A stretch of 47,830 nucleotides of DNA from Bdellovibrionia bacterium (lineage in GTDB: Bacteria > Bdellovibrionota > Bdellovibrionia > Bdellovibrionales > UBA1609): contig JAUILT010000011.1 in assembly GCA_030432925.1 (NCBI GenBank), forward strand, positions 1 to 47,830, written 5' to 3'. The notes under the pieces are model-generated. The model had not been told where the DNA came from. It made no database searches and was given only the letters and a program-made list of their open reading frames with translations. A program made the translations under genes and the position numbers. Positions 12,417 to 39,385 of the stretch are shown in pieces (position 1 is the first letter of the stretch; every line of letters begins with the position of its first letter).

Positions 12417-12474
12417 CAATAGACACGCCGTACTTTTTACGCTCTTGGTCGTAAAAAGTACGGCGTGTCTATTG
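12417..12474. terminator. 25-bp perfect inverted repeat, bidirectional terminator or repeat element
   Basis: Arm 12417-12441 pairs without mismatch with 12450-12474 around the loop CTCTTGGT. It lies between convergent genes and contains the exbD stop codon (12469-12471). The central part (12433-12457) is about 80% identical to 34661-34685 inside another inverted repeat. A T run sits inside the stem rather than after it, so this is not a textbook terminator. Confidence 0.7.
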
Positions 12475-12876
12475 GTTGTCGATGGTGATGGCAAACTTTT
12501 TCACCCCACCGGACTTTACGGCATCAATCACACCCACAACCTGGCCGTGGGAGACATCTTTATCGGCAGAGATAATGGCTTGAATCTCAGGTTTGTTGAC
12601 AATCACTTGGGTTGAATAGGCTTTGATGGCATCCACATCAGAGGGCTCACCATTCAGCAGGACACTGCCATTTTTGGTGATGGTGATACTTAATTTGGAC
12701 GGCGTGGTCTCATCACCGCTTTTTGCCTTGGGAAGGTTTACGTTAATACTTGGTTTCATGATAATAGGCGTAGTAACCATAAAAATAATCAAGATCACTA
12801 AGATGATATCAACAAACGGAACAATATTAATCTCCGCTATGGGCTCATCATTGTCTGTTCCAAGCTTACCAGCCAT
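12469..12876 (-). CDS. exbD: ExbD/TolR family proton-channel subunit
   Basis: 135 residues. After a short cytoplasmic start comes EINIVPFVDIILVILIIFMV (about 14-33) with the conserved membrane aspartate of ExbD/TolR (residue 23), then a periplasmic domain of the usual size ending GGVKKFAITIDNQ. With ExbB it uses the proton gradient to drive TonB- or TolA-type periplasmic work. It follows exbB with 3 bases between. No tonB, tolA or tolB is present in the window, so the partner is unknown; ExbD and TolR cannot be separated from sequence alone. Its stop codon lies inside a long inverted repeat. Confidence 0.9.
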   Translation of the reverse strand: MAGKLGTDNDEPIAEINIVPFVDIILVILIIFMVTTPIIMKPSINVNLPKAKSGDETTPSKLSITITKNGSVLLNGEPSDVDAIKAYSTQVIVNKPEIQAIISADKDVSHGQVVGVIDAVKSGGVKKFAITIDNQ

Positions 12877-12879
12877 GTT

Positions 12880-13512
12880 TTACGCCTTTCCTTTGGGCGC
12901 TTTAGCATAAGCAAGGCATAGGTCCTTTACGCCTTCCAGGCTTTGCATGATGGACTTTACCTGTCGCTGAAAATAGTTGAAAGCAACAATGGCGGGAATG
13001 GCCACCATAAGGCCAATAGCAGTGGCTACGAGAGCTTTAGAAATTCCAATCATTACTGCTGAGGCATCGCCGTGACTTGTTGCCAGACCTCTAAAAGCGT
13101 CCATAATTCCAAAAACAGTTCCTAAAAGCCCAATGAATGGTGCATTGGAACCCACGGTCGCCAGAAAGTTGAGATATCTTTCTAACTTGGGTTTTTCAGT
13201 AAGAGCATAGGCATTAAAAATCTCTTCTAAACCCTCTGAGCCATGCTGTTTGACGTGTCGAAGTCCGTAGGTCAGAGCTCTTCCCTCAATGGTTTGCTTG
13301 TCTTTGCTCAAATCCTCAATTTCAGACAGGTGGCTGCTTTGCAGGGTTTCACTAATTTGTTGTGCGATCTTCTGGCTGTCATTTTTGGCCTTACGAAGGC
13401 TGAAAAAACGCTCAAGAATAAATGTTAGGCTGAGAATACTGAGTGCCACTAAAATCCACAGCGTAATCTCATGACCAAACTCAGCAATAGTAAAAAACTT
13501 TTCTGTAAACAT
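12880..13512 (-). CDS. exbB: MotA/TolQ/ExbB family proton-channel protein
   Basis: 210 residues with three hydrophobic segments: about 13-32, then a pair in the second half (about 113-135 and 150-175). The signature is FLATVGSNAPFIGLLGTVFGIMDAF, followed by GISKALVATAIGLMVAIPAIVAFNYF, both typical of ExbB/TolQ. It forms the inner-membrane channel with ExbD, encoded next. The first gene of a two-gene unit, divergent from the sulfatase-like lipoprotein gene with about 55 bases between start codons. Confidence 0.92.
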   Translation of the reverse strand: MFTEKFFTIAEFGHEITLWILVALSILSLTFILERFFSLRKAKNDSQKIAQQISETLQSSHLSEIEDLSKDKQTIEGRALTYGLRHVKQHGSEGLEEIFNAYALTEKPKLERYLNFLATVGSNAPFIGLLGTVFGIMDAFRGLATSHGDASAVMIGISKALVATAIGLMVAIPAIVAFNYFQRQVKSIMQSLEGVKDLCLAYAKAPKGKA

Positions 13513-13568: not shown

Positions 13569-15413
13569 ATGGTCAAGGTATCATTGAAATTCATGAAATT
13601 TCGTTCAGCGTTAACAATTTTTGTCAGTTTATTTGTCCTACTTTTTACGGCTTGTAGTTGGAATCCACAAAAACAACCGTCTATTCTAGTTATTGCTGTG
13701 GAGGGGCTTTCTTTTGACTCTTTTTCTTGCACCTCTGAGCAGGTGCAGTCACACCCTGATTTTGCCGGCTTTCGAGTGTTTTGTGAGGAAGCTGTTCGGT
13801 TTACTCACGCCTTTGCCCCCTCTTCGTTATCTCAACCCTCTCTTGTGTCTTTATTGACGGGCCTCTACCCAGTAGAACACAGAGTTCGGAATCAGGGAGG
13901 TGACTTTCTCAGCGGAAAGTTAACCACTGTTGCGGAAGCGGCCATTGAAAAAGGCTTTCGTACCAGCCTGATTTCGGGAGGGGCTCCCATATGGAGAAAG
14001 TCTGGTCTAGCTCAGGGGATGGAATACTTTGAAGATAATATTTCCATCAACCAGAAGAAGCTTTTTCGACCTGTCAGAAGGTCTATGGAGTTATTTGAAT
14101 TCAACCTGCAAAGTAGGTTCAGGGAGTCTGCTTTTTTTACGGTGATTTTTGCGAATGATTTGATGTTTCCAGGAGAAACCACTAAAAATAACTCCGGAGA
14201 AATACGAAGTCGCACTGTGGGTAGTCAATTACTGGAGTTGAGTGAATCCATCAACAACTTGGTATCTTCACTTAAAAAGTTAGGGCGCTGGGACAACACT
14301 CATGTGATCCTTACAGGGCTGAACGGAGGACTTTTTAATAGAAGACCTGGAGAGGAGCGAGGTTATAGCCTTTTCAGTTCAAACACTCAGGTGAAACTTT
14401 TTATCAAACCAGCCACAAAAAAAAGGGATTTGGGCCTTCAGTGGACCATTGATCGTAATATTAGTCTCGTAGATGTGGGGAAAACTCTTTTCGATTTGGT
14501 GGGGGCTGTGATGCCACAGCAAAGTCGGTTTTCAGTTCATACACTGGTCAATGTTCTCAAAGAGCCCAATGTAGATTGGCCTCAGGGACGAATTCTATTG
14601 ACAGAGTCGGCATGGCCCAGTTGGCAGGGGGTTGGGGTTGAAAGGTACTCTATGAGAATGGATCAGTATTTGTTGATCTATGATCAGATGCCTCAACTTT
14701 ATAATACGCTGATTGATCGTCAGGAGGTATCTCGAATTAAAAAAGATGATCCTTTGGTTAAAGTACCTATGCAGCGTTTTATGGAGTTTATCAAACAGAA
14801 TAAATTAACGCCCTGGAGACCCTTGCCAGAAACTTTGAGTGAAAAACTGGCTATTGCAAGAGATCTTTGGACCGAAGGGAGGGCAGACAATCGGTTGGAA
14901 CAACGATTAAGGCATATTTCTAGAAAGCGAAACTGGGATTCGCAGATTTGGGGTTGGCAGGCACGTGAGCTGATGCAGAAGCAGAACTGGAAAAGGCTTT
15001 TAAGAATTGGTCGAGAAGTAGACAATGGCCCTTGGCAGTACTTGGCTCGTCAACATTTAGGTGAGCAGCAAGTGCCTTCTGAGCTGAAGAAGTGTGAGAA
15101 AACCCTAAGTGATTTTTCAGATGTTCCTTCATTGCGAGATTGTGATGACCCTATTTTCAGCCTATTTGCTGCTTGGGTGAGGGAGAAAGATTTTTCACAA
15201 GTAACCCCTTTGAAAGAGCGTTTTTTAAGGCAGTATAAGATTTTTTTAAGGGATCAAAAAATAGCACAAATGAACTTTCAAAATGGTTTGACCTGGTCAG
15301 TAATAAAAAAATATCCAGAAGGTCCTTCGTTGACAGAAATTGCGTTGTCATTACCTAGAATGGAGGGGTTTTCGCGACAAGTAAAGTCAAGGTTGTTTGA
15401 TGAAAACCTCTGA
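13569..15413 (+). CDS. Sulfatase-fold lipoprotein lacking catalytic residues (pseudoenzyme)
   Basis: 614 residues from the ATG at 13569, preceded by GGAAG; a GTG at 13542 is also in frame. A signal peptide ends at LLFTAC (Cys29), a likely lipoprotein site. The next 330 residues follow the sulfatase/alkaline phosphatase plan: ILVIAVEGLSFDSF, FTHAFAPSSLSQPSLVSLLTGLYPVEHRV, and HVILTGLNGGLF. The usual C/S-x-P-S-R is S-Q-P-S-L, the first metal aspartate pair is missing (VEG), and the S-D-H-G metal motif reads G-L-N-G. Activity as a sulfatase is therefore unlikely. The last 200 residues are helical. Its end overlaps the opposite radical SAM gene by 27 bases. Role may be binding rather than catalysis. 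Confidence 0.7.
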   Translation: MVKVSLKFMKFRSALTIFVSLFVLLFTACSWNPQKQPSILVIAVEGLSFDSFSCTSEQVQSHPDFAGFRVFCEEAVRFTHAFAPSSLSQPSLVSLLTGLYPVEHRVRNQGGDFLSGKLTTVAEAAIEKGFRTSLISGGAPIWRKSGLAQGMEYFEDNISINQKKLFRPVRRSMELFEFNLQSRFRESAFFTVIFANDLMFPGETTKNNSGEIRSRTVGSQLLELSESINNLVSSLKKLGRWDNTHVILTGLNGGLFNRRPGEERGYSLFSSNTQVKLFIKPATKKRDLGLQWTIDRNISLVDVGKTLFDLVGAVMPQQSRFSVHTLVNVLKEPNVDWPQGRILLTESAWPSWQGVGVERYSMRMDQYLLIYDQMPQLYNTLIDRQEVSRIKKDDPLVKVPMQRFMEFIKQNKLTPWRPLPETLSEKLAIARDLWTEGRADNRLEQRLRHISRKRNWDSQIWGWQARELMQKQNWKRLLRIGREVDNGPWQYLARQHLGEQQVPSELKKCEKTLSDFSDVPSLRDCDDPIFSLFAAWVREKDFSQVTPLKERFLRQYKIFLRDQKIAQMNFQNGLTWSVIKKYPEGPSLTEIALSLPRMEGFSRQVKSRLFDENL

Positions 15414-16151
15414 AGCAATACTCAATTTTCTTTTAATCAAAGATTCAATGACATAAAGGTCATCTTCAGTCAGTGGAGTGCATGAAGGGTCAACTGGTGG
15501 TTTATCAATTGTGTAGAGCTGGATTTTTTTGGGCTTGAGAATTCCGACAAGTTCCATCCACTCATCGATATTTTCCTTTGTGTTATTAGACTTTGGCCCT
15601 CCGTAGAACATGCTCTGAACAATACAATCCTTGAGTTTACGGCTGCCTGAGGTGATTCGAGAGAGGGTCGCGCGTATAAGTGGTGAGTTGATTTTTTTGA
15701 AACTTCGCTCATTACCGCAGTCAATTTTTATAATACGCTCATCCAATTGGTTAAGGGCATGAACTGTTTTATTGGTATCAATGTGAGCACCATTGGAAAG
15801 TAGTATCAATTGAGAGGATGGGTTGAGCTCTTGCCTAGCAATTAACAAGTGATCAATGAGTTCTGGAAGTTCAGGGTATAGCGTGGGCTCTCCATTTCCT
15901 GAGAGTAGGAGTGACTGCACTTTTATGCCTTGCTGATTGGCATTGCGGAGAGACGCTCTAAAAGCAGCTTCAACGTCTTTTACGCTAGGAAACTGTATCT
16001 CTTTTTTAATTTGATTCATGCGAACTTCAGAGGGACCGAGGTCACAGTAAATGCAATCATAGGAGCACAACTTCTCAGGGCCAAGAGGATTAATGATAAT
16101 TGATTGGCCAAAGCGCAAGTCAAAGTGTGGCTGTCCAGCTAACTCTTTCAT
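15387..16151 (-). CDS. Radical SAM protein of unknown substrate
   Basis: 254 residues from the ATG at 16149-16151, which overlaps the upstream stop as ATGA. The iron-sulfur motif C-x3-C-x2-C is in KLCSYDCIYCDLGPSE (about residues 28-42), followed by the SAM-contacting LLLSGNGEPTLYPEL and a strand LILLSNGA. This set, with no extra cysteine cluster at the C-terminus, resembles the COG0731-like group of small radical SAM proteins whose substrates are mostly unknown. It is the last gene of the FHA/TadC run. The cytoplasmic enzyme may modify a protein or RNA; nothing in the window points to which. Confidence 0.82.
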   Translation of the reverse strand: MKELAGQPHFDLRFGQSIIINPLGPEKLCSYDCIYCDLGPSEVRMNQIKKEIQFPSVKDVEAAFRASLRNANQQGIKVQSLLLSGNGEPTLYPELPELIDHLLIARQELNPSSQLILLSNGAHIDTNKTVHALNQLDERIIKIDCGNERSFKKINSPLIRATLSRITSGSRKLKDCIVQSMFYGGPKSNNTKENIDEWMELVGILKPKKIQLYTIDKPPVDPSCTPLTEDDLYVIESLIKRKLSIASEVFIKQP

Positions 16152-16828
16152 GGTTCTAAAACCCCTAACCAAAATGGCATTCTTTCATCTTGTTGTATCA
16201 GACTGTCAGCAAGGTAATCAATGGAGATATTGAAGTGTTCAATTGATAAGAAGCGAGGGGGGGTCAATGATCGACTCAACAAGATAACTTTATTATTTTT
16301 GTCCAAAGGGTAGGATTGAACTGTCAAGTTTACAGATTTTTCAATACCCATAAGAAGGCGAGGAACTGGTGGAAGTTGTATACCTTGAGGGCTTAAGCAG
16401 GTGCTAAGATCACTGCCTGTAGCTAGGGGTTGAATAGGGAGTCCAGGTTGGCCCAAGTATACTTGAGGTTGTCCGACTTGAACAAAGCTGAATTCATTAT
16501 CAATTCGTGCTCCTACAAAAATTTCACAAGCACTTTTGTATTCACTGCTATTAAGCTCCGAGTAAATCGCCTCGTTGGCGAGCATCACAGCAGCTCTCAG
16601 GTTATTGGCTGTGGGACTCAGACAGAGTATTTTGTCGAACGGGCTTGTAGACTCCCAATCGGTACTGGCTGAAGAAAAATAGTCAACGACCACTTCAATG
16701 GCTTTTTTGGCGGCAGTTCTCTGCCCCCAGGGGGTAGCTGCAATACAAAGGGTTCCCTTGTCTTCAAAGAAAACCTCAGGTGTTGGTCTGAATATTTGCC
16801 CGCCATAGGCCTGTTCAAGGAGCTTCAT
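16148..16828 (-). CDS. PP2C-like protein with replaced metal ligands (putative pseudophosphatase)
   Basis: 226 residues. By eye it follows the bacterial PP2C phosphatase plan but every metal-binding aspartate is gone: the usual A-D-G-x-G-G is ATPWGQ (31-36), the V-G-D-S-R-x-Y strand is VQVGQPQVYLG (117-126), and the L-x-S-D-G-L strand is LLSRSL (183-188). The helix AAKKAIEVVVDYF and the run AAVMLANEAIY also match PP2C positions. If correct, it would bind, not cleave, phosphoproteins, or act as a scaffold, consistent with three FHA (phosphothreonine-reading) proteins upstream. It overlaps the radical SAM gene by 4 bases and follows the FHA gene after 23. The fold assignment needs a structure comparison. 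Confidence 0.5.
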   Translation of the reverse strand: MKLLEQAYGGQIFRPTPEVFFEDKGTLCIAATPWGQRTAAKKAIEVVVDYFSSASTDWESTSPFDKILCLSPTANNLRAAVMLANEAIYSELNSSEYKSACEIFVGARIDNEFSFVQVGQPQVYLGQPGLPIQPLATGSDLSTCLSPQGIQLPPVPRLLMGIEKSVNLTVQSYPLDKNNKVILLSRSLTPPRFLSIEHFNISIDYLADSLIQQDERMPFWLGVLEP

Positions 16829-16851
16829 GAATTATCTATTGAGTTACAATA

Positions 16852-18843
16852 CTAGATGCCATCTCCATATTTTTTGAGTTTTCGTGTTGCTTTTTTATAA
16901 AAATCGTCAAATTCAAGGTCATTTTTACGTATAAGCCGCCATTTTTCTTTGGCAGCGTCCACGTTACCAAGGCTTTCTTCAAGAATAGCATCTTGATAAA
17001 TGGATTTCATTTCTCGACGAAGCTCTGACAAAGTGTCCTTTTTTAATTCTTTGGCTTTTGAGTGAGAAGGGTCTTCTTGAGATGCTTGGTCACAGGCCAG
17101 CCAGGCCTCTTTGAACTTATTATTATTTTTTAGAGCCTCACACTCTTCGAGAAGACCATTGATTTTAGTATCAAGTTTCTTTTTAACAGAGGCTAGCTCC
17201 CTATTGGCTGTGGACTTTTCGATAGATAGCCCTGGGTAGCCGGCACTGAGGAAGGACTTGTAGGTCTTGATGGCCTTGGCTAGCTCGTCTTTTTGTGCGA
17301 GTTTTTTTGCACGTGCAAGGTGGGATCGTCCTTTTTTTTGCTGGGCTCTTCGAGCCGCAGCTTGAGCGGCGGCATTTCTTTTATTCAGTTCACGTTGCTT
17401 AATTTCTTCAAGATATGCGACCACGTTGGGGTGTTGAGGATCTAGTTCAATGGCCTTTTGTAGGCAAATTTGAGCTTCGTCCATAGAGGTTTTGTCAGTC
17501 GTTTTTGATTGGCAGTACTCTACAGTGGTGAGGATAATCTGCTCAGTCTCTTGTTGCTTTTTTTCTCTTGCAATTCGATCTTCCTCTTGTCGTAAAAGCA
17601 TGGATCCGTGCTCGCAGAGACTTTTGATTTTTTTTGAATTTTCAAATGAGGGGATGATCTTATGAAGCTTCCTTAACTCTGACATACAAAGTTCGTACCT
17701 TTGATTGATATAATGCTGTTGGGCCAAATTAAAGATATCTTTGGTGGCTGTTTTTTGATCCTCTGTCAGAGAGTCAAATGTCTGGCTGCTAGAGGCAGAC
17801 TCTTTCTTTCCATCTTTTTTATTGGGATGGCCATCATCCATCAGTCCAATGATAAGAATGGGAATAAGAAGAGCTAATATAATTTTAACTTTGTGTTTTT
17901 TGAAGTCAAAGTTTTTAAAAAAGCTTTTATTAAAAATATTTTCGATTTTTTCTTCAAACACACCGTTTTGTGAAAAATCAGGCGGTGGCATTGGCATCAT
18001 TATGTTTGGAGAGGGCTGCTGATACTCTATTGCCTGCAAAGGAAGGGCGGCCAGTTGCTTTTTGGCCCTTTCAAATTTACTTTCAAAATCCACATCTCGA
18101 ACTTCAAAGTGTAGGGTAATATTTTGAATATTTATTTGATCTCCACTGAGGATCTTAATGGGTTTATGGGCGGGCAGTTCGCTGCCGTTCAGCTCAGTGC
18201 CATTGGCGCTGTTAAGGTCTAGAACAAAAAACTCCTGTCCAACTCTCTTGATTTCAAAATGTTTGCGACTTGCGAGATTATCGTTAATGTGAATTTCACA
18301 GCTGGGGTCACGCCCTGCAACCCAGAGGTTTCCTTCTAGCTCTAAAATAGAATCACTTCCTGACTCCGTACCCGTGATTTTTAAAAATGCCTTTAAAGAA
18401 GAGTTGATGAGTTGAGTTTGATTACTTGGGGCCGCTTGAATTTGTGAGGGGGCTCCACCAGTTGTTCTTGTGACCAAGCTGTTTGTTGATTTTTCATTTT
18501 TGTAAGAGTTCTCTTCATCAGAAGGCTCTTTGGTCATCGATTTTTCTTCAGATATTTCCTCGAAAATAAAAACATAATTGCTGACTGAAAACTCAGAAAA
18601 GTGCACAAGTTCTAAGGACGGTGTGGGCCCCCCTTCGTAGGTCATGTTTCCTAGGCGAGAGAGGCATTCTACTACCCAAACATCATTATCTTGAAACACT
18701 TTTAGGTGTTTTCTTGAAATTCCTTTTGAAGCTTCAAGAACGAGGTCACAGGCCTTATCTCGTCCAATGATATACTCTTTTCCATCTTCGAGGAGAAGCT
18801 CATGGTAGAGGGTTCCAAGATATTTCACCTTTAGTAGAGCCAT
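16852..18843 (-). CDS. Membrane protein with two FHA domains and a TPR-like periplasmic tail
   Basis: 663 residues. First FHA domain about 5-95 (IIGRDKACDLVL, GISRKHLKVF; the usual final N-G is absent). Second FHA about 160-250 with the full set G-R, S-R-K-H and S-A-N-G-T (residues 177-178, 192-195, 212-216). One hydrophobic segment at 320-335, then helical repeats from about 360 that look like TPRs (for example residues rich in A-x-x-x-Y/L and E-L-D-P-Q-H-P). The FHA pair should read phosphothreonine in the cytoplasm while the TPRs sit in the periplasm. Start ATG overlaps the previous stop by one base (TGATG). Ser/Thr kinase genes are not in the window. Confidence 0.88.
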   Translation of the reverse strand: MALLKVKYLGTLYHELLLEDGKEYIIGRDKACDLVLEASKGISRKHLKVFQDNDVWVVECLSRLGNMTYEGGPTPSLELVHFSEFSVSNYVFIFEEISEEKSMTKEPSDEENSYKNEKSTNSLVTRTTGGAPSQIQAAPSNQTQLINSSLKAFLKITGTESGSDSILELEGNLWVAGRDPSCEIHINDNLASRKHFEIKRVGQEFFVLDLNSANGTELNGSELPAHKPIKILSGDQINIQNITLHFEVRDVDFESKFERAKKQLAALPLQAIEYQQPSPNIMMPMPPPDFSQNGVFEEKIENIFNKSFFKNFDFKKHKVKIILALLIPILIIGLMDDGHPNKKDGKKESASSSQTFDSLTEDQKTATKDIFNLAQQHYINQRYELCMSELRKLHKIIPSFENSKKIKSLCEHGSMLLRQEEDRIAREKKQQETEQIILTTVEYCQSKTTDKTSMDEAQICLQKAIELDPQHPNVVAYLEEIKQRELNKRNAAAQAAARRAQQKKGRSHLARAKKLAQKDELAKAIKTYKSFLSAGYPGLSIEKSTANRELASVKKKLDTKINGLLEECEALKNNNKFKEAWLACDQASQEDPSHSKAKELKKDTLSELRREMKSIYQDAILEESLGNVDAAKEKWRLIRKNDLEFDDFYKKATRKLKKYGDGI

Positions 18844-19811
18844 CAGTAACGTTCTCCAATCTGTGCCTTGCAGGCATCATAATTGGCTTTAGCCTGTTGA
18901 TAGATCTTACTATTTTTATCTTTGACCATGACCATCACTGTTTTAAGGCTGCTCATACAAGCTTGAAATTGGTTGCGATCTCTGTAGTCCATGCCTAGAA
19001 TCATATGGTTTTGAACGACCTCATTAAATTTACGTGTACTGAGGTTGAGATAGCGTTCACAAAGAACATGCTCTGGAAACAGGCTTAAACAGGTTTGAAA
19101 GGAATCTCGAGCTCTACCGTACTGCCTCTTTTGAAAATCTCTGAACCCTTTTACATAGTTGGCTTGTGCATCTCGATACTGTACGGTATTTCTATTGCTG
19201 GCTCTCAGTTCATCTTCTTTAGCTTTTTTTATTTGTTTTGCAGCTTCAATTTCAGCCTCTATATCGCGATCAGAAGTGATTTCAATCTCATTTTTTTGAG
19301 AACCGGTTTCGGATAAAAATAACCAGGCAAAAAAGATTATCCCCAGAAAAATGAGTATTTTAAATGTTGGAGATATACGTTTGGAGTTGCCAGAGTGTTT
19401 ATTTTGTCTATTAGGATTGGCCAGCTCCTGTTCTGGTACAGCATATTGAGATGATTTGACCTGCAGCTCTGTATTGGGGCTAAGAATTTCTACTTGAAAT
19501 TGTAGTTTCGTTTGCCCTAATTGTATAACTGCTCCATTGTGAAGAAGAGCATGGTTGACCTCTTGACCGTCGACAATGGCAGGGTTTTTTTGACTTTGAC
19601 TTCGGATTTCATAACCATGAGGGCCGTATTCAATGATGGCATGAAGTCGGGAGCATTTGTTATCGTACTCAATAGAGATGTCATTGTCTGAAGATCGGCC
19701 AAGAGTGATTTTTGGAGAAGCCAATTTGAAGCGAGTTCCCTTTTTCTCACCATTGAAAAAAGTCAAAGAGTAATTGGCCGATGCAGGCAGGTTTGTTGCG
19801 AATTGATTCAC
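18843..19811 (-). CDS. FHA-domain membrane protein with TPR-like periplasmic tail
   Basis: 322 residues. FHA domain about 12-110 with G-R (38-39) and S-R-L-H (54-57); the last asparagine-glycine is replaced by VDG, so binding strength is uncertain. A linker leads to a hydrophobic segment at about 150-167 and then a helical region with TPR-like units (QARYNV-type spacing, for example AQANYVKGFRDFQKRQYGRA and SLFPEHVLCERYLNLSTRKF). Same layout as the larger gene after it, so the two probably arose by duplication. The GTG start overlaps the previous stop by four bases (GTGA). Confidence 0.85.
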   Translation of the reverse strand: MNQFATNLPASANYSLTFFNGEKKGTRFKLASPKITLGRSSDNDISIEYDNKCSRLHAIIEYGPHGYEIRSQSQKNPAIVDGQEVNHALLHNGAVIQLGQTKLQFQVEILSPNTELQVKSSQYAVPEQELANPNRQNKHSGNSKRISPTFKILIFLGIIFFAWLFLSETGSQKNEIEITSDRDIEAEIEAAKQIKKAKEDELRASNRNTVQYRDAQANYVKGFRDFQKRQYGRARDSFQTCLSLFPEHVLCERYLNLSTRKFNEVVQNHMILGMDYRDRNQFQACMSSLKTVMVMVKDKNSKIYQQAKANYDACKAQIGERY

Positions 19812-21460
19812 TCAAATCCCCCTTCCATTGGCAGCAGAACAATAAGAAAGTAGCTAATTCCTGAGCTTCCCAGGATTGCTTGGGCAGCAACTTGGAAGGA
19901 TTCTCCATTGAACTCAAGATCATTAGTGGCAATTTCATCCTGACGACTTTCAACTCGTTCTATAAGATCTAGAAGGCTTAGGTTCAAGGCTTGGTCAGGG
20001 ATGTCAGAGACAGACATATACAGATTTTCATTACTGTTGAGTCGAGATTTCTCTTCAAAAATGGGGTTCATGGCAGCAATTGTTCGATCAGTGGCTAAAA
20101 CTGTCATTGCTCCAAAGCCAATCATTTCTAAAAGGTTACTCATTTCATGAGTGCGATCTGCCTCAAAGTTAGTCATACTTTCAGATTCCTGACTATTACC
20201 AGAGCGTGAAAGTGCACTACTGATATTAGAGGCTAAGCTCTCTAATACTGGAAACTCATAGTCCACCTCAATATTGGAGGTTCCACTTTTTAGAGCTGTA
20301 TTCAGTTGATAGTTAATACTCTTCAGGGGGTATTCAATCATTTTATAGAGAAAGAAAAACAAAATGCTTCCAATGATTAACGAGATAAACAGAGTTTGAA
20401 TAAATAGACTTAGAGTTTTTCCATCATCAACAGACAAAGAGCCCATATCATATGCTACAACGGAGTAAGCAGTGATAGCTCGAGAGCCAGTTTCTGCATT
20501 GTAAAATTCCATGGGGGCAAGGGCCACTACAGTATCTGAGTCAACCTGAGAGACGGCCTCTTTACCGCGCTTTCTGGCATCATGAACAAAAGCAATGTCC
20601 GGATAAGTTCCTGCTTTGGCCGCCGGTGCGATAATGCTTCCATCTACATCAGAGATAATCAGGGCGTCTTTTACACCCGGACGCTTCAAAGCAATAGCCA
20701 CGGAGACCGCAGTGTTTAATCCTTGGCTCAGAGCCGGGGCATTGACTTCAGCTAGAGTTTTTGCAATGGTCAGTGCGTGCTCTTGGCTTTCACGCTCTAC
20801 GCTTGTTTTCAAAATCCGTATTAGAGGAATCGTGGAAAGTGATGTTACTAGAATGATGAAGCCGATCATAAAAATACCCAACACCCATTTGAACTCCAGG
20901 TGCTCTGGCAATCGGTAAACTCCGGGGAGAACAACATCCTCTACATAGTTTCTGATTATATCCAGAATCTGATGGCCAGCTGTTTCTGGAAGCTCTTCAG
21001 TTTCTTCATGGGGTATGGCCGATGCTTGTGTTTGATAGTCGTGGGCCGTGGCGCTACTGACTCCACCATAATTAGGTGGAGCATAAGGGTTATGTTGTTG
21101 CGATGATTGCTGTTGGCTTCTAAACTGAGCGTGGTAGACATTTTTTTGAGTCTGATAGATGGGGTGACTGGAGTCCGCCTCAATGACCTCCATAAGAACA
21201 TGGTGTAGGGCAATTTTATCTCCCATTTGTAGGGATTTGTTTCTGATCTGCACTCCGTTGACAAATGTTCCGTTGCTGGATCCCATGTCAGAAATGATGA
21301 TTTTTCCGGCGAGCACTTCAATTTTTGCATGATGTTTAGATACGCCCGGACTTGCTAATGGAAAAGTGCAATCGTTACCACGGCCAAGTATAATTTGTCC
21401 TTCATGAAGGGAAATGACTGACCCAGCTTGAGGTCCGGAGACAATTCTAATGGCCAACAC
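19808..21460 (-). CDS. FHA-domain protein with periplasmic sensor-like domain and PAS-like C-terminus
   Basis: 550 residues. FHA domain about 1-95 with a complete signature (ILGRGNDC, VSKHHAKI, SSNGTFVNG). A Gln/Pro/Tyr-rich linker to about 185, then transmembrane segments at about 191-211 and 350-372 enclosing roughly 135 periplasmic residues that resemble an extracellular sensor domain (DALIISDVDGSIIAPAAKAG). After a short HAMP-like stretch comes a C-terminal cytoplasmic part (about 425-545) with PAS-like features (MTVLATDRTIAAMNPIFEEK) but no kinase. It could turn an external signal into changed FHA contacts. Start appears to be GTG at 21460, 14 bases inside the DUF192 gene. Confidence 0.82.
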   Translation of the reverse strand: MLAIRIVSGPQAGSVISLHEGQIILGRGNDCTFPLASPGVSKHHAKIEVLAGKIIISDMGSSNGTFVNGVQIRNKSLQMGDKIALHHVLMEVIEADSSHPIYQTQKNVYHAQFRSQQQSSQQHNPYAPPNYGGVSSATAHDYQTQASAIPHEETEELPETAGHQILDIIRNYVEDVVLPGVYRLPEHLEFKWVLGIFMIGFIILVTSLSTIPLIRILKTSVERESQEHALTIAKTLAEVNAPALSQGLNTAVSVAIALKRPGVKDALIISDVDGSIIAPAAKAGTYPDIAFVHDARKRGKEAVSQVDSDTVVALAPMEFYNAETGSRAITAYSVVAYDMGSLSVDDGKTLSLFIQTLFISLIIGSILFFFLYKMIEYPLKSINYQLNTALKSGTSNIEVDYEFPVLESLASNISSALSRSGNSQESESMTNFEADRTHEMSNLLEMIGFGAMTVLATDRTIAAMNPIFEEKSRLNSNENLYMSVSDIPDQALNLSLLDLIERVESRQDEIATNDLEFNGESFQVAAQAILGSSGISYFLIVLLPMEGGFE

Positions 21461-21797
21461 TGAGAATGTCTCCTTTCTCTACTTTGTCGGGAGTTAACTG
21501 GCCCGCCGCCATTTCGAAAACTGAAAAAGACCTCCAGTGAGCAAATACTAAGCGCCAGGGAGGGACATGGGTCTTCACTGTTTGCACCACAAGGTTGCGA
21601 TCCACGAAAATCAAGTCCAAAGAAAATTTCATAAAAAATGTATGAACACTGAAGTAGCTGTTGGGAATCCAAAGCGCTTTGCCGTTTTCCAAAGACGTTC
21701 TTCCAAGCAAACCTTTGTTTCTTTTTTGAAACCCACTGGCCACTTCCACGGTTGAGGCAATGATTGTGTTTTTGGATGTGTTGATCAGTGCACCCAT
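21447..21797 (-). CDS. DUF192 family protein
   Basis: 116 residues from the ATG at 21795-21797, which overlaps the tadC stop by one base. It has the DUF192 pattern: GLLGRTSLENGKALWIPNSY, then FFMKFSLDLIFVDRNLVVQTV, a V-P-P-W stretch, and VFEMAAGQLTPDKVEKGDIL. The family forms a small beta-barrel-like fold; its biochemical role is not established. No signal peptide is seen here, unlike many relatives, so it may be cytoplasmic. It lies between tadC and the first FHA gene with overlaps on both sides. Confidence 0.87.
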   Translation of the reverse strand: MGALINTSKNTIIASTVEVASGFQKRNKGLLGRTSLENGKALWIPNSYFSVHTFFMKFSLDLIFVDRNLVVQTVKTHVPPWRLVFAHWRSFSVFEMAAGQLTPDKVEKGDILSVGH

Positions 21798-22705
21798 CAC
21801 TTGCCTCCATAAAAGAACTGCAACACCACGGGTGCAAACACCATGATAAAAACTGCAGGAAGAATAAACATCATCATCGGGATCAACATCTTTTGTGAAG
21901 CTTGAGCCCCTGCCTTTTCAGCTCGAACAAACCTCTCTAGGCGCATCTGTTCGGACTGATCCTTGAGCACCTGAGAAATACTGGCTCCGGTGGCGTCGGC
22001 ATCAATGACAACAGCCACAAAACTTGTGACTTCTGGAATATCAAGGCGCTTTGCCATAGTTCTTAGAGCATCAGCTCTTGAACTGCCAAGCTTGATATCT
22101 TTTAGAACAATCCTTAATTCATCAGCAAGTACACTGTTATCAGACTTTTCTACAATTCGTTGAATGGCGCCAATAAAGTCCAGACCAGCTTCTGTGGACA
22201 ACGCAAGAATATCAATGAAGAAAGGAAGGTCTACAACGACAGAGGTATAGCGATTGTTTTTTTTGGTTGTGCAGTAAATTCCTGGAAACAGAGCGCCACC
22301 AATAGAGATGAGTCCACAGAACCAATAGGGGTATCCTAACTGCAGAGCAAAGTTCATGATAACAGCTGCTGCTGGGAACATAATTCCCCAAAGGATTTGC
22401 AGGCCAATGTATTCATCGACATTGATTTCTTGGGATAGACCCGCCGTTAGAATTCGTTGATCTACTTTTTTTCTGTAGTTTTCTGCAGTGATTTTTTGTG
22501 CATGCTGGAGAGTGAAGTTGTGAACCAATGGGCGAGACAGGTTGATCAACGCATTTTCAGATTTTGCGGGCTCATCTCCGGAAGCCCAAGCAAGGGAGTT
22601 GGCATCTGTATTGTTGGTAAAGATGGTACCCATAAACAAGTACACTGAAAAGGCTGCGAGCCCAAGTCCACTTATCAATAAAAGAAAATCAAAGCTTAAC
22701 ATCAT
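21797..22705 (-). CDS. tadC: TadC-like type II secretion system F-domain protein
   Basis: 302 residues (including a double ATG at the start; the second, 22702, has the better spacing from AAAGGTGG). Hydrophobic segments at about 5-25, 105-145 (two) and near the C-terminus (LIPMMMFILPAVFIMVFAPVVLQFF). The F domain is recognisable: VVDLPFFIDILALSTEAGLDFIGAI, then ADELRIVLKDIKLGSSRADALRTMAKRLDIPEV and the S-Q-V-L-K-D-Q/R-E-R-F-V-R-A-E-K-A pattern. This matches TadC, the second inner-membrane platform protein of Tad (Flp pilus) machines. tadA and tadB are not adjacent: this gene is the first of its operon. GspF is a less likely alternative. Confidence 0.87.
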   Translation of the reverse strand: MMLSFDFLLLISGLGLAAFSVYLFMGTIFTNNTDANSLAWASGDEPAKSENALINLSRPLVHNFTLQHAQKITAENYRKKVDQRILTAGLSQEINVDEYIGLQILWGIMFPAAAVIMNFALQLGYPYWFCGLISIGGALFPGIYCTTKKNNRYTSVVVDLPFFIDILALSTEAGLDFIGAIQRIVEKSDNSVLADELRIVLKDIKLGSSRADALRTMAKRLDIPEVTSFVAVVIDADATGASISQVLKDQSEQMRLERFVRAEKAGAQASQKMLIPMMMFILPAVFIMVFAPVVLQFFYGGK

Positions 22706-37839: not shown

Positions 37840-39385
37840 ATTTCTTACAGAAAGGCTTATAAGTTCTGACTTAGAAGGCTATTCCGCGCCGGAGCGGATG
37901 CGTATGGCCTTTGAAAAGCTGGGCCCTACATTCGTAAAGCTGGGGCAAGTATTGGCAACAAGGCCTGATCTTGTGCCTGCCGACTTCAGAGAAGAATTTA
38001 AAAAACTCCACGATAGGGCACTCACTCTGGACTTCAATGAAATCAGAGGGGTTTTGGATGATCACTACGGCCAGGATCTGAATGATATCTTTAGAGAGTT
38101 TGATGATGAACCTCTGGCTGCGGCAAGCATTGCCCAGGTTCACAGTGCAGTTCTTCGTAACGGTGACAGAGTGGTCGTTAAAATACAACGACCAGGTGTT
38201 GATAAAGTTATCGATGAAGATCTAAGTGTTCTTTACACTCTGGCGGAACTTTTAAACCGCTATGTGCCTGAAGCTAAGCTATTCAACCCTATTGGTATTG
38301 TGAACGAATTTTTCAAGACCCTTGAGTTAGAAACCAACTTTGTGGTGGAGGCAAATAACCTGCGTCGGTTTCAGGAGAACTTTGCGGATGACTTGGACGT
38401 TATTATTCCCGAAGTTTATACGGAGCTAACGGGAAGAAAAGTCCTTGTTATGGAAATGTTGGAAGGCATTCCTCTCAGTCATAAGCAGGCTTTGGAACAG
38501 GAGGGTGTTGAGCCTGAGGAGGTATTAAGAAAAGGCCTTCGAACTTATTTACGGATGGTGTTTATCCATGGTCTTTTTCATGGAGATCTTCATGCTGGAA
38601 ATCTTTTTGTTTTTCCCAATAATAAAATTGGTCTCATTGACTTTGGGGTGGTGGGGCGCCTCAATGACAAGACTCAGTCAGCCATTGCTAATATGCTTTT
38701 GGCTCTTTCTAACGAAGACTATGATCGTTTAGCCTATCTCTATGCAGACCTAGCGCCTTATACAGACACTGTGAATATTGACAGATTTGCAAGGGAGCTG
38801 CGAGATCTCATTGCTCCCTATCATGGGTTGACCTCACGTCATGTGAACCTAGGAAAACTACTCATGGATTCTACGGGAGTGGCTTACTCTCAAGGTTTGG
38901 CTCTTCCCTCTGAACTGATCATGTTCTTTAAATCTATTGTCACCGTTGAAGGTATGGGGCGGTTGATCTCTTCAGACTTTGACTTTTTGACGGCAGCTTT
39001 AGAGTTTGCTGATGAGCTCCTCCAGGAGCGTTACCAACCTAAAAAACTTATCACTGAAGCCACGTATGCTTTTTCTGATCTTGCTTCGTTACTTAGGTTT
39101 CTTCCTCGGCAAGTGAAACAATTTGTGCGTAAGGTGAATAGCCCGGATCATTCAATGCAGGTCAGTATTGAGCAGATTGACCAGCATAGAAAATCTATGG
39201 AAAAAGCTTCAGATATTATCTTTTTGGGTCTTGTTATTGGAGCTCTATTATTGAGCTCTTCAGTGGTGATTCTGGCAAAGGCAGATATGCCCATCTTTTT
39301 GGGGTTGCCAGTCGTCTCAGCCCTTGGGTACGGGCTAGCAGGGCTTCTTGGATTGGTCACTTTTTATAATTATATTCGCCGTTAG
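37724..39385 (+). CDS. ubiB: ABC1/UbiB-family atypical kinase
   Basis: 553 residues from the ATG at 37724, preceded by AGAAGAGG. The family start is LKTIVGVFAKHGFQDLAEKAK. Further marks are the KxGQ motif (GPTFVKLGQVLATRPDLVP), an alanine-rich loop (AAASIAQVHSA), VVVKIQRPGVD, and the catalytic FHGDLHAGNLFVF with IDFGVVGRL. Two hydrophobic segments near the C-terminus anchor it in the membrane. UbiB proteins are needed for quinone synthesis or lipid handling, as ATPases. It begins 116 bases before the rnr stop in another frame: the conserved start lies within the rnr tail, so the overlap is real. Confidence 0.92.
   Translation: MLQKRRTSPLKNAARLKTIVGVFAKHGFQDLAEKAKLGKFLTERLISSDLEGYSAPERMRMAFEKLGPTFVKLGQVLATRPDLVPADFREEFKKLHDRALTLDFNEIRGVLDDHYGQDLNDIFREFDDEPLAAASIAQVHSAVLRNGDRVVVKIQRPGVDKVIDEDLSVLYTLAELLNRYVPEAKLFNPIGIVNEFFKTLELETNFVVEANNLRRFQENFADDLDVIIPEVYTELTGRKVLVMEMLEGIPLSHKQALEQEGVEPEEVLRKGLRTYLRMVFIHGLFHGDLHAGNLFVFPNNKIGLIDFGVVGRLNDKTQSAIANMLLALSNEDYDRLAYLYADLAPYTDTVNIDRFARELRDLIAPYHGLTSRHVNLGKLLMDSTGVAYSQGLALPSELIMFFKSIVTVEGMGRLISSDFDFLTAALEFADELLQERYQPKKLITEATYAFSDLASLLRFLPRQVKQFVRKVNSPDHSMQVSIEQIDQHRKSMEKASDIIFLGLVIGALLLSSSVVILAKADMPIFLGLPVVSALGYGLAGLLGLVTFYNYIRR

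Follow-up and report, generated by a model that had tools for sequence, protein, structure and literature searches.

A Tad-FHA operon of Bdellovibrionota ending in a gene for a PP2C-fold protein that is a putative pseudophosphatase in Bdellovibrionales

How predatory bacteria sense contact with prey and trigger their pili is an open question, and it is raised by a group of genes in a Bdellovibrionia bacterium (Bdellovibrionales, UBA1609) in which the gene for a Tad (Flp pilus) platform protein is followed by genes for three FHA proteins and one PP2C-like protein. Might phosphothreonine signals control the Tad machine of this organism, and can the PP2C-like protein be the enzyme that erases them? 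The genes reside in the window, by which we mean the entire 47,830-nucleotide stretch that was analysed (positions 1-47,830, forward strand, of contig JAUILT010000011.1). This contig is one of 172 in an assembly of 3.04 Mb (GCA_030432925.1).

The operon and its published counterpart

Seven ORFs called at positions 15387-22705, all on the minus strand and closely packed, follow one another in the order tadC, DUF192, FHA1, FHA2, FHA3, PP2C-like and radical SAM. Neighbouring genes overlap by four bases at tadC/DUF192, by 14 at DUF192/FHA1, by four at FHA1/FHA2 and by one at FHA2/FHA3, and 23 bases separate FHA3 from the PP2C-like gene. The last joint is an overlap of 25 bases when counted from a TTG start, or of four bases, as read off the sequence, when counted from an internal ATG. 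An initial annotation made from the sequence alone had described these seven same-strand genes and their joints, and our measurements agree with it provided that the internal ATG is used at the radical SAM gene.

The first gene (21797-22705, minus strand) encodes a TadC-type inner-membrane platform protein of 302 aa (Pfam T2SSF, 2.7e-18), and the second (21447-21800, minus strand) a DUF192 protein of 117 aa (Pfam DUF192, 6.8e-17). Next come FHA1 (19808-21460, minus strand; 550 aa; Pfam FHA, 1.7e-16), FHA2 (18843-19811, minus strand; 322 aa; Pfam FHA, 1.3e-12, with a weak TPR_2 match) and FHA3 (16852-18843, minus strand; 663 aa; Pfam FHA, 5.9e-25 in two stretches, with a weak TPR match), so that Pfam domain scans back the T2SSF, DUF192 and four FHA domains assigned initially. 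The PP2C-like protein (16148-16828, minus strand; 226 aa) is recognized by profile and predicted fold. The radical SAM protein (15387-16172, minus strand), which is COG0731/TYW1-like and appears to be accessory, carries a CxxxCxxC motif and has only a sub-threshold Pfam match.

This operon is not new, because it is the counterpart of the published Bd0470-Bd0475 operon of Bdellovibrio bacteriovorus (PMC6561027, PMC12034629). The same six genes occur in the same order (tadC-DUF192-FHA1-FHA2-FHA3-sixth gene); FHA2, FHA3 and the PP2C-like protein correspond to Bd0473, Bd0474 and Bd0475, and FHA3 shares the architecture of Bd0474, which comprises two FHA domains, a transmembrane (TM) segment and TPRs (PMC12034629). 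The two operons differ at their end, which in the window is overlapped by a radical SAM gene. The Bd0470::tn (TadC) mutant does not attach to prey, whereas the Bd0474::tn (FHA) mutant attaches but neither kills nor rounds its prey (PMC6561027), which places the operon at both attachment and killing. In addition, Bd0474 binds the TPR protein Bd0075 in a two-hybrid assay, and an interaction between Bd0473 and Bd0475 has been predicted (ipTM 0.604; PMC12034629). Both papers name Bd0475 as hypothetical, and neither reports PP2C descent or metal-ligand loss for this protein (PMC6561027, PMC12034629).

The main tad locus of the genome, on another contig (C9), encodes a prepilin peptidase, two TadE/F-like proteins (the one that was scanned has no Pfam match), RcpC, the RcpA secretin, a TadZ-TadA fusion and TadB. 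This locus lacks tadC, and therefore the tadC gene in the window fills the gap. All other Tad/Flp components that we looked for (the TadA ATPase, TadB, the RcpA secretin, RcpC, prepilin peptidase and pilin) are found in the genome, with the Flp1-like pilin match lying below the Pfam cut-off; the platform protein TadC is supplied by the window rather than by C9. The initial annotation was right to place tadA, tadB and a Ser/Thr kinase outside the window, since all are encoded on other contigs. Full-length orthologues of the window TadC in relatives are 54-85% identical, and a weaker, TadB-like match in these relatives also sits at a place separate from tadC. The C9 fusion (L025, 2963-5254) joins TadZ, which is MinD/ParA-like, to TadA in one protein of 763 aa. 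A similar fusion occurs in another member of the order (G038; L193, 10449-12650), and an RHS-like repeat protein is encoded downstream of tadB in both genomes.

Conservation of the six-gene unit

In 40 loci from relatives as distant as order level, the genes from tadC to the PP2C-like gene keep their sequence unchanged, save that in L033, L034 and L041 a PP2C-like gene after FHA3 was not found by BLAST or the contig ends. Gaps in these loci are mostly -14 to +5 bases and reach about 200 in some, and certain wider apparent overlaps depend on the start codon chosen. The same order is kept by every one of the 60 named loci that extend from tadC to the PP2C-like gene, among them a full-length locus of B. 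bacteriovorus (L127); 59 were confirmed by script and L116 by inspection, its script mismatch being an artefact of the ORF start. By contrast with the six, the radical SAM gene is present in only 14 of the 40 order-level loci and 17 of the 60 named loci, and we rejected it as a core member. The proposed seven-gene operon consequently reduces to a conserved unit of six, and the comparison of gene order that had been suggested for it revealed no scattering of these six genes across the Bdellovibrionota loci compared.

Within the order, linkage is weak evidence because the neighbourhood is syntenic anyway: the flanking genes divIVA, proC, yggS, maf, a sulfatase gene and exbBD are likewise conserved. 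This could mean that tadC and the FHA genes are adjacent merely by inheritance and work independently. The argument against such ordinary synteny is carried by an outgroup of 54 loci from other families of the phylum, in which all six genes occur in order in 38, the first five in nine, and a cut or incomplete set in seven. The 38 complete loci hold the six genes together with short gaps, and none shows, in the sequence covered (for many loci mainly the downstream side), the genes that flank the operon in the order. Moreover, disruption of either of two of these genes abolishes predation in B. bacteriovorus (PMC6561027). We consequently regard independent function of neighbours by inheritance as very improbable, and the six genes, judging from these alignments of loci, appear to form a unit that has been kept across the phylum beyond chance.

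Seven of the nine five-gene outgroup loci have room downstream in which no PP2C-like ORF was recognized, the other two (L178 and L179) stop near FHA3, and several loci of family f12 lack the phosphatase gene. In the outgroup locus L205, tadC stands by itself. When the genome collection was scanned for tadC, no title among the 80 loci listed named a group outside Bdellovibrionota, with the titles of L081 and L097 being generic.

Two observations concern the surroundings of the operon. In most members of the order, the operon has as neighbours a TolQ/TolR-like exbB/exbD pair (12469-13512 in the window) and a sulfatase-family gene; the 38 outgroup loci showed no such neighbours. Separately, the order member G038, which is rated 100% complete, keeps rcpC, rcpA, tadZ-tadA and tadB (L193, G038:C33) and shows no trace of a tadC-FHA-PP2C operon of the type found in the window.

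FHA domains and a PP2C fold lacking metal ligands

The FHA1 model (AlphaFold pLDDT 86.9) consists of an FHA domain on the cytoplasmic side, a disordered linker, a TM segment, a periplasmic sensor-like domain, a second TM segment, HAMP-like helices and a PAS-like domain, with TM-like segments at residues 187-219 and 348-377. The PAS label given initially is thus favoured by the predicted fold, and PAS matches are obtained with some FHA1 orthologues, but FHA1 itself has no Pfam PAS match. No kinase or other output domain was found in this protein by domain scan, AlphaFold or Foldseek. FHA2 has one FHA domain, and FHA3 two; each has a single TM-like segment (residues 146-171 and 314-332, respectively) followed by a TPR-like periplasmic part. 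Inside and outside the order alike, each of the four FHA domains retains the Arg and Ser of its phosphothreonine site at 92-100%, in alignments in which roughly one row in ten is a near-duplicate. The downstream loop Asn is conserved at 96-100% in FHA1 and in the second FHA domain of FHA3 and at 74% in the FHA2 proteins of the order; the first FHA domain of FHA3 does not conserve it. These contact residues are consistent with the initial view of the FHA domains as phosphothreonine readers, and all four are putative binders.

The PP2C-like ORF alone has no Pfam or NCBIfam match. However, a profile built from 36 orthologues matches the PP2C tPphA of Thermosynechococcus in the PDB (4e-4 to 5e-4), and some orthologues match Pfam SpoIIE or PP2C. 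The AlphaFold model (pLDDT 95.5) also has tPphA as its top Foldseek match (6.8e-13), and the top 14 matches include PstP and the type VI secretion system (T6SS) phosphatase PppA (6JKV; 2.8e-10). Profile, fold and outgroup members rule out that this ORF is unrelated to PP2C, and so the initial label stands. The fold is retained and the metal-binding residues are not. Where active PP2Cs carry DGxGG with the bridging metal Asp, the window protein has TPWG (residues 32-35; 16724-16735, minus strand), the W and G of which are found in 97% and 92% of order members; it has VGQP (residues 118-121; 16466-16477, minus strand) in place of the canonical VGDS, and Arg186 of an LLSRS stretch (16271-16273, minus strand) in place of the PP2C SDG.

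We counted these positions in 76 distinct order members and 41 outgroup members, setting the Asp columns on an outgroup member and checking them against a canonical PP2C encoded elsewhere in this genome (contig C71), whose five Asp residues align to the same columns. Asp is absent from all 76 order members at D18 and at the bridging position D34, each of which is kept by 39 of 41 outgroup members, and at D193, which is kept by 23 of 41. D119 is Asp in none of the members on either side. At D231, Asp is present in 22 of 41 outgroup members and one of 76 order members, the latter figure being uncertain because the C-terminal alignment shifts between runs and a nearby Asp aligns there in another. 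All four core residues (D18, D34, D193 and D231) are kept by 22 of the 41 outgroup members, those of L157 and L162 among them. On a tadC tree (one protein, quick search, midpoint root), the split between intact and non-intact PP2C proteins needs at least seven changes, and therefore the catalytic residues appear to have changed repeatedly. The loss is most complete in the order of the window, which forms one fully supported group without D18, D34 and D193. The ancestral PP2C was probably active, as the scattered intact members and PP2Cs in general suggest.

Could the protein still be catalytic through a rearranged active site, such as one in which a terminal Asp and nearby residues form the metal site? 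The order does have new invariant residues (W34, T61, N75, N93, E102, G119, G161 and W220), and of the 64 members whose terminal Trp is recognizable, 41 have an Asp close to the last strand. Nevertheless, D18, D34, D119 and D193 are missing in 76 of 76 members, which removes the core metals known for PP2C, and we consider a rearranged enzyme improbable. As far as the alignments allow, the sixth protein is a pseudophosphatase throughout Bdellovibrionales with three core metal sites gone, and therefore it cannot be read as the eraser of a signal in these organisms.

Phosphothreonine and the Tad machine

The operon and the idea of an FHA-Tad connection have already been published (PMC6561027, PMC12034629, PMC8460266), and FHA-phosphopeptide gating of predation has been shown for another Bdellovibrio protein, DgcB (PMC6733907), whose FHA domain is among the Foldseek matches of FHA1. 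New relative to the literature searched are the PP2C identity of the last gene, the disappearance of its metal ligands throughout the order while the FHA sites stay conserved, and the constancy of the six-gene unit across the phylum. The search found no paper joining Tad pili, an FHA domain and PP2C.

Two known systems are similar. The T6SS PpkA-Fha-PppA pathway shares an FHA reader and a PP2C clustered with a secretion nanomachine. The window operon differs from it in that the machine is of the Tad type, the four FHA domains are spread over three membrane proteins, the cluster lacks a kinase gene and, in the order, the phosphatase is dead. The Kil system of Myxococcus xanthus is a Tad-like predator machine with several FHA proteins of unknown role, for which an FHA signalling cascade was proposed and Kil-like systems were extended to Bdellovibrionales (PMC8460266, PMC12075869); the words kinase and phosphatase are absent from the main text on this system. 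KilF has an N-terminal FHA domain, whereas the TadA of our genome, likened here by description, has a ParA/MinD-like N-terminus from its fusion to TadZ and no FHA-ATPase fusion.

We favour, with moderate confidence, the reading that the operon combines the TadC half of the inner-membrane platform with three FHA proteins that form a phosphothreonine-gated scaffold around it, by analogy with the T6SS pathway. Prey or surface contact would lead a Ser/Thr kinase encoded elsewhere to phosphorylate threonines on a Tad or FHA partner, and binding by the FHA domains would then assemble or hold the TadA-TadB-TadC motor and its TPR partners in the periplasm, which would lead to building or firing of the pilus. 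Where the PP2C is intact, this enzyme may reset the mark. In Bdellovibrionales, it would have given up catalysis and serve as a binding partner, possibly of FHA2, leaving any removal of the mark to another phosphatase. A more specific version, in which the ancestral eraser has become a non-catalytic phospho-adaptor throughout the order and contact with prey trips the switch in one direction, without a reset, is tentative, and we would sooner doubt it than adopt it. A PP2C-fold pseudophosphatase in Bd0475, together with its intact-looking relatives, would offer a direct handle on the proposed phospho-control of the Tad machine.

Several findings count against the gated scaffold: G038 has tadA and tadB without the operon, L205 has tadC alone, no Ser/Thr kinase gene lies inside the operon, and the lost phosphatase chemistry may reflect a relaxation of phospho-control. 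FHA-like domains serve as interfaces in the rings of type III secretion systems (SctD/YscD). The FHA and PP2C-like proteins might likewise be mere protein-protein interfaces that hold the Tad platform, with no phosphorylation in the order. Matches to Yop-YscD_cpl (PF16697) in all three FHA proteins, the presence of PscD among the FHA folds listed by Foldseek, and a phosphatase that is dead in the order and absent from several f12 loci are in keeping with a purely structural role. However, such a role does not fit the conservation of the phosphothreonine-site Arg and Ser, or of the loop Asn in FHA1 and the second FHA3 domain, or the intact-looking phosphatase in outgroup versions of the operon, and we judge it unlikely.

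Four Ser/Thr kinases in the genome exceed the cut-off, all on contigs other than the window. A weak Pkinase match in the window (38429-38677) was ruled out because it belongs to an ABC1/UbiB-type protein far from the operon. The kinases are candidates for the phosphothreonine-gated scaffold, with none singled out as its partner. In B. bacteriovorus, Bd3148 has been raised as a predation-linked kinase for an FHA protein outside this operon (PMC6733907). Contig C2 (L026, 504-3326) carries a second short T2SSF pair, then a 149-aa ORF, a Ser/Thr kinase gene and UppP, which represents a TadB/TadC-like platform linked to a kinase. Such modules occur in many relatives, and a T2SSF-like gene adjoins the kinase gene in 13 of 14 loci fetched, one of them from this genome. 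We rejected the C2 kinase as a dedicated partner, because the Bdellovibrio-like genomes G042, G048, G053 and G056 show weak kinase matches only, and the T2SSF-kinase module is present in G038 (L227) despite the absence of the FHA operon from that genome. The canonical PP2C on C71 and a kinase gene next to a PP2C gene on C118 (L228, L229) add possible erasers of phosphothreonine marks to this inventory.
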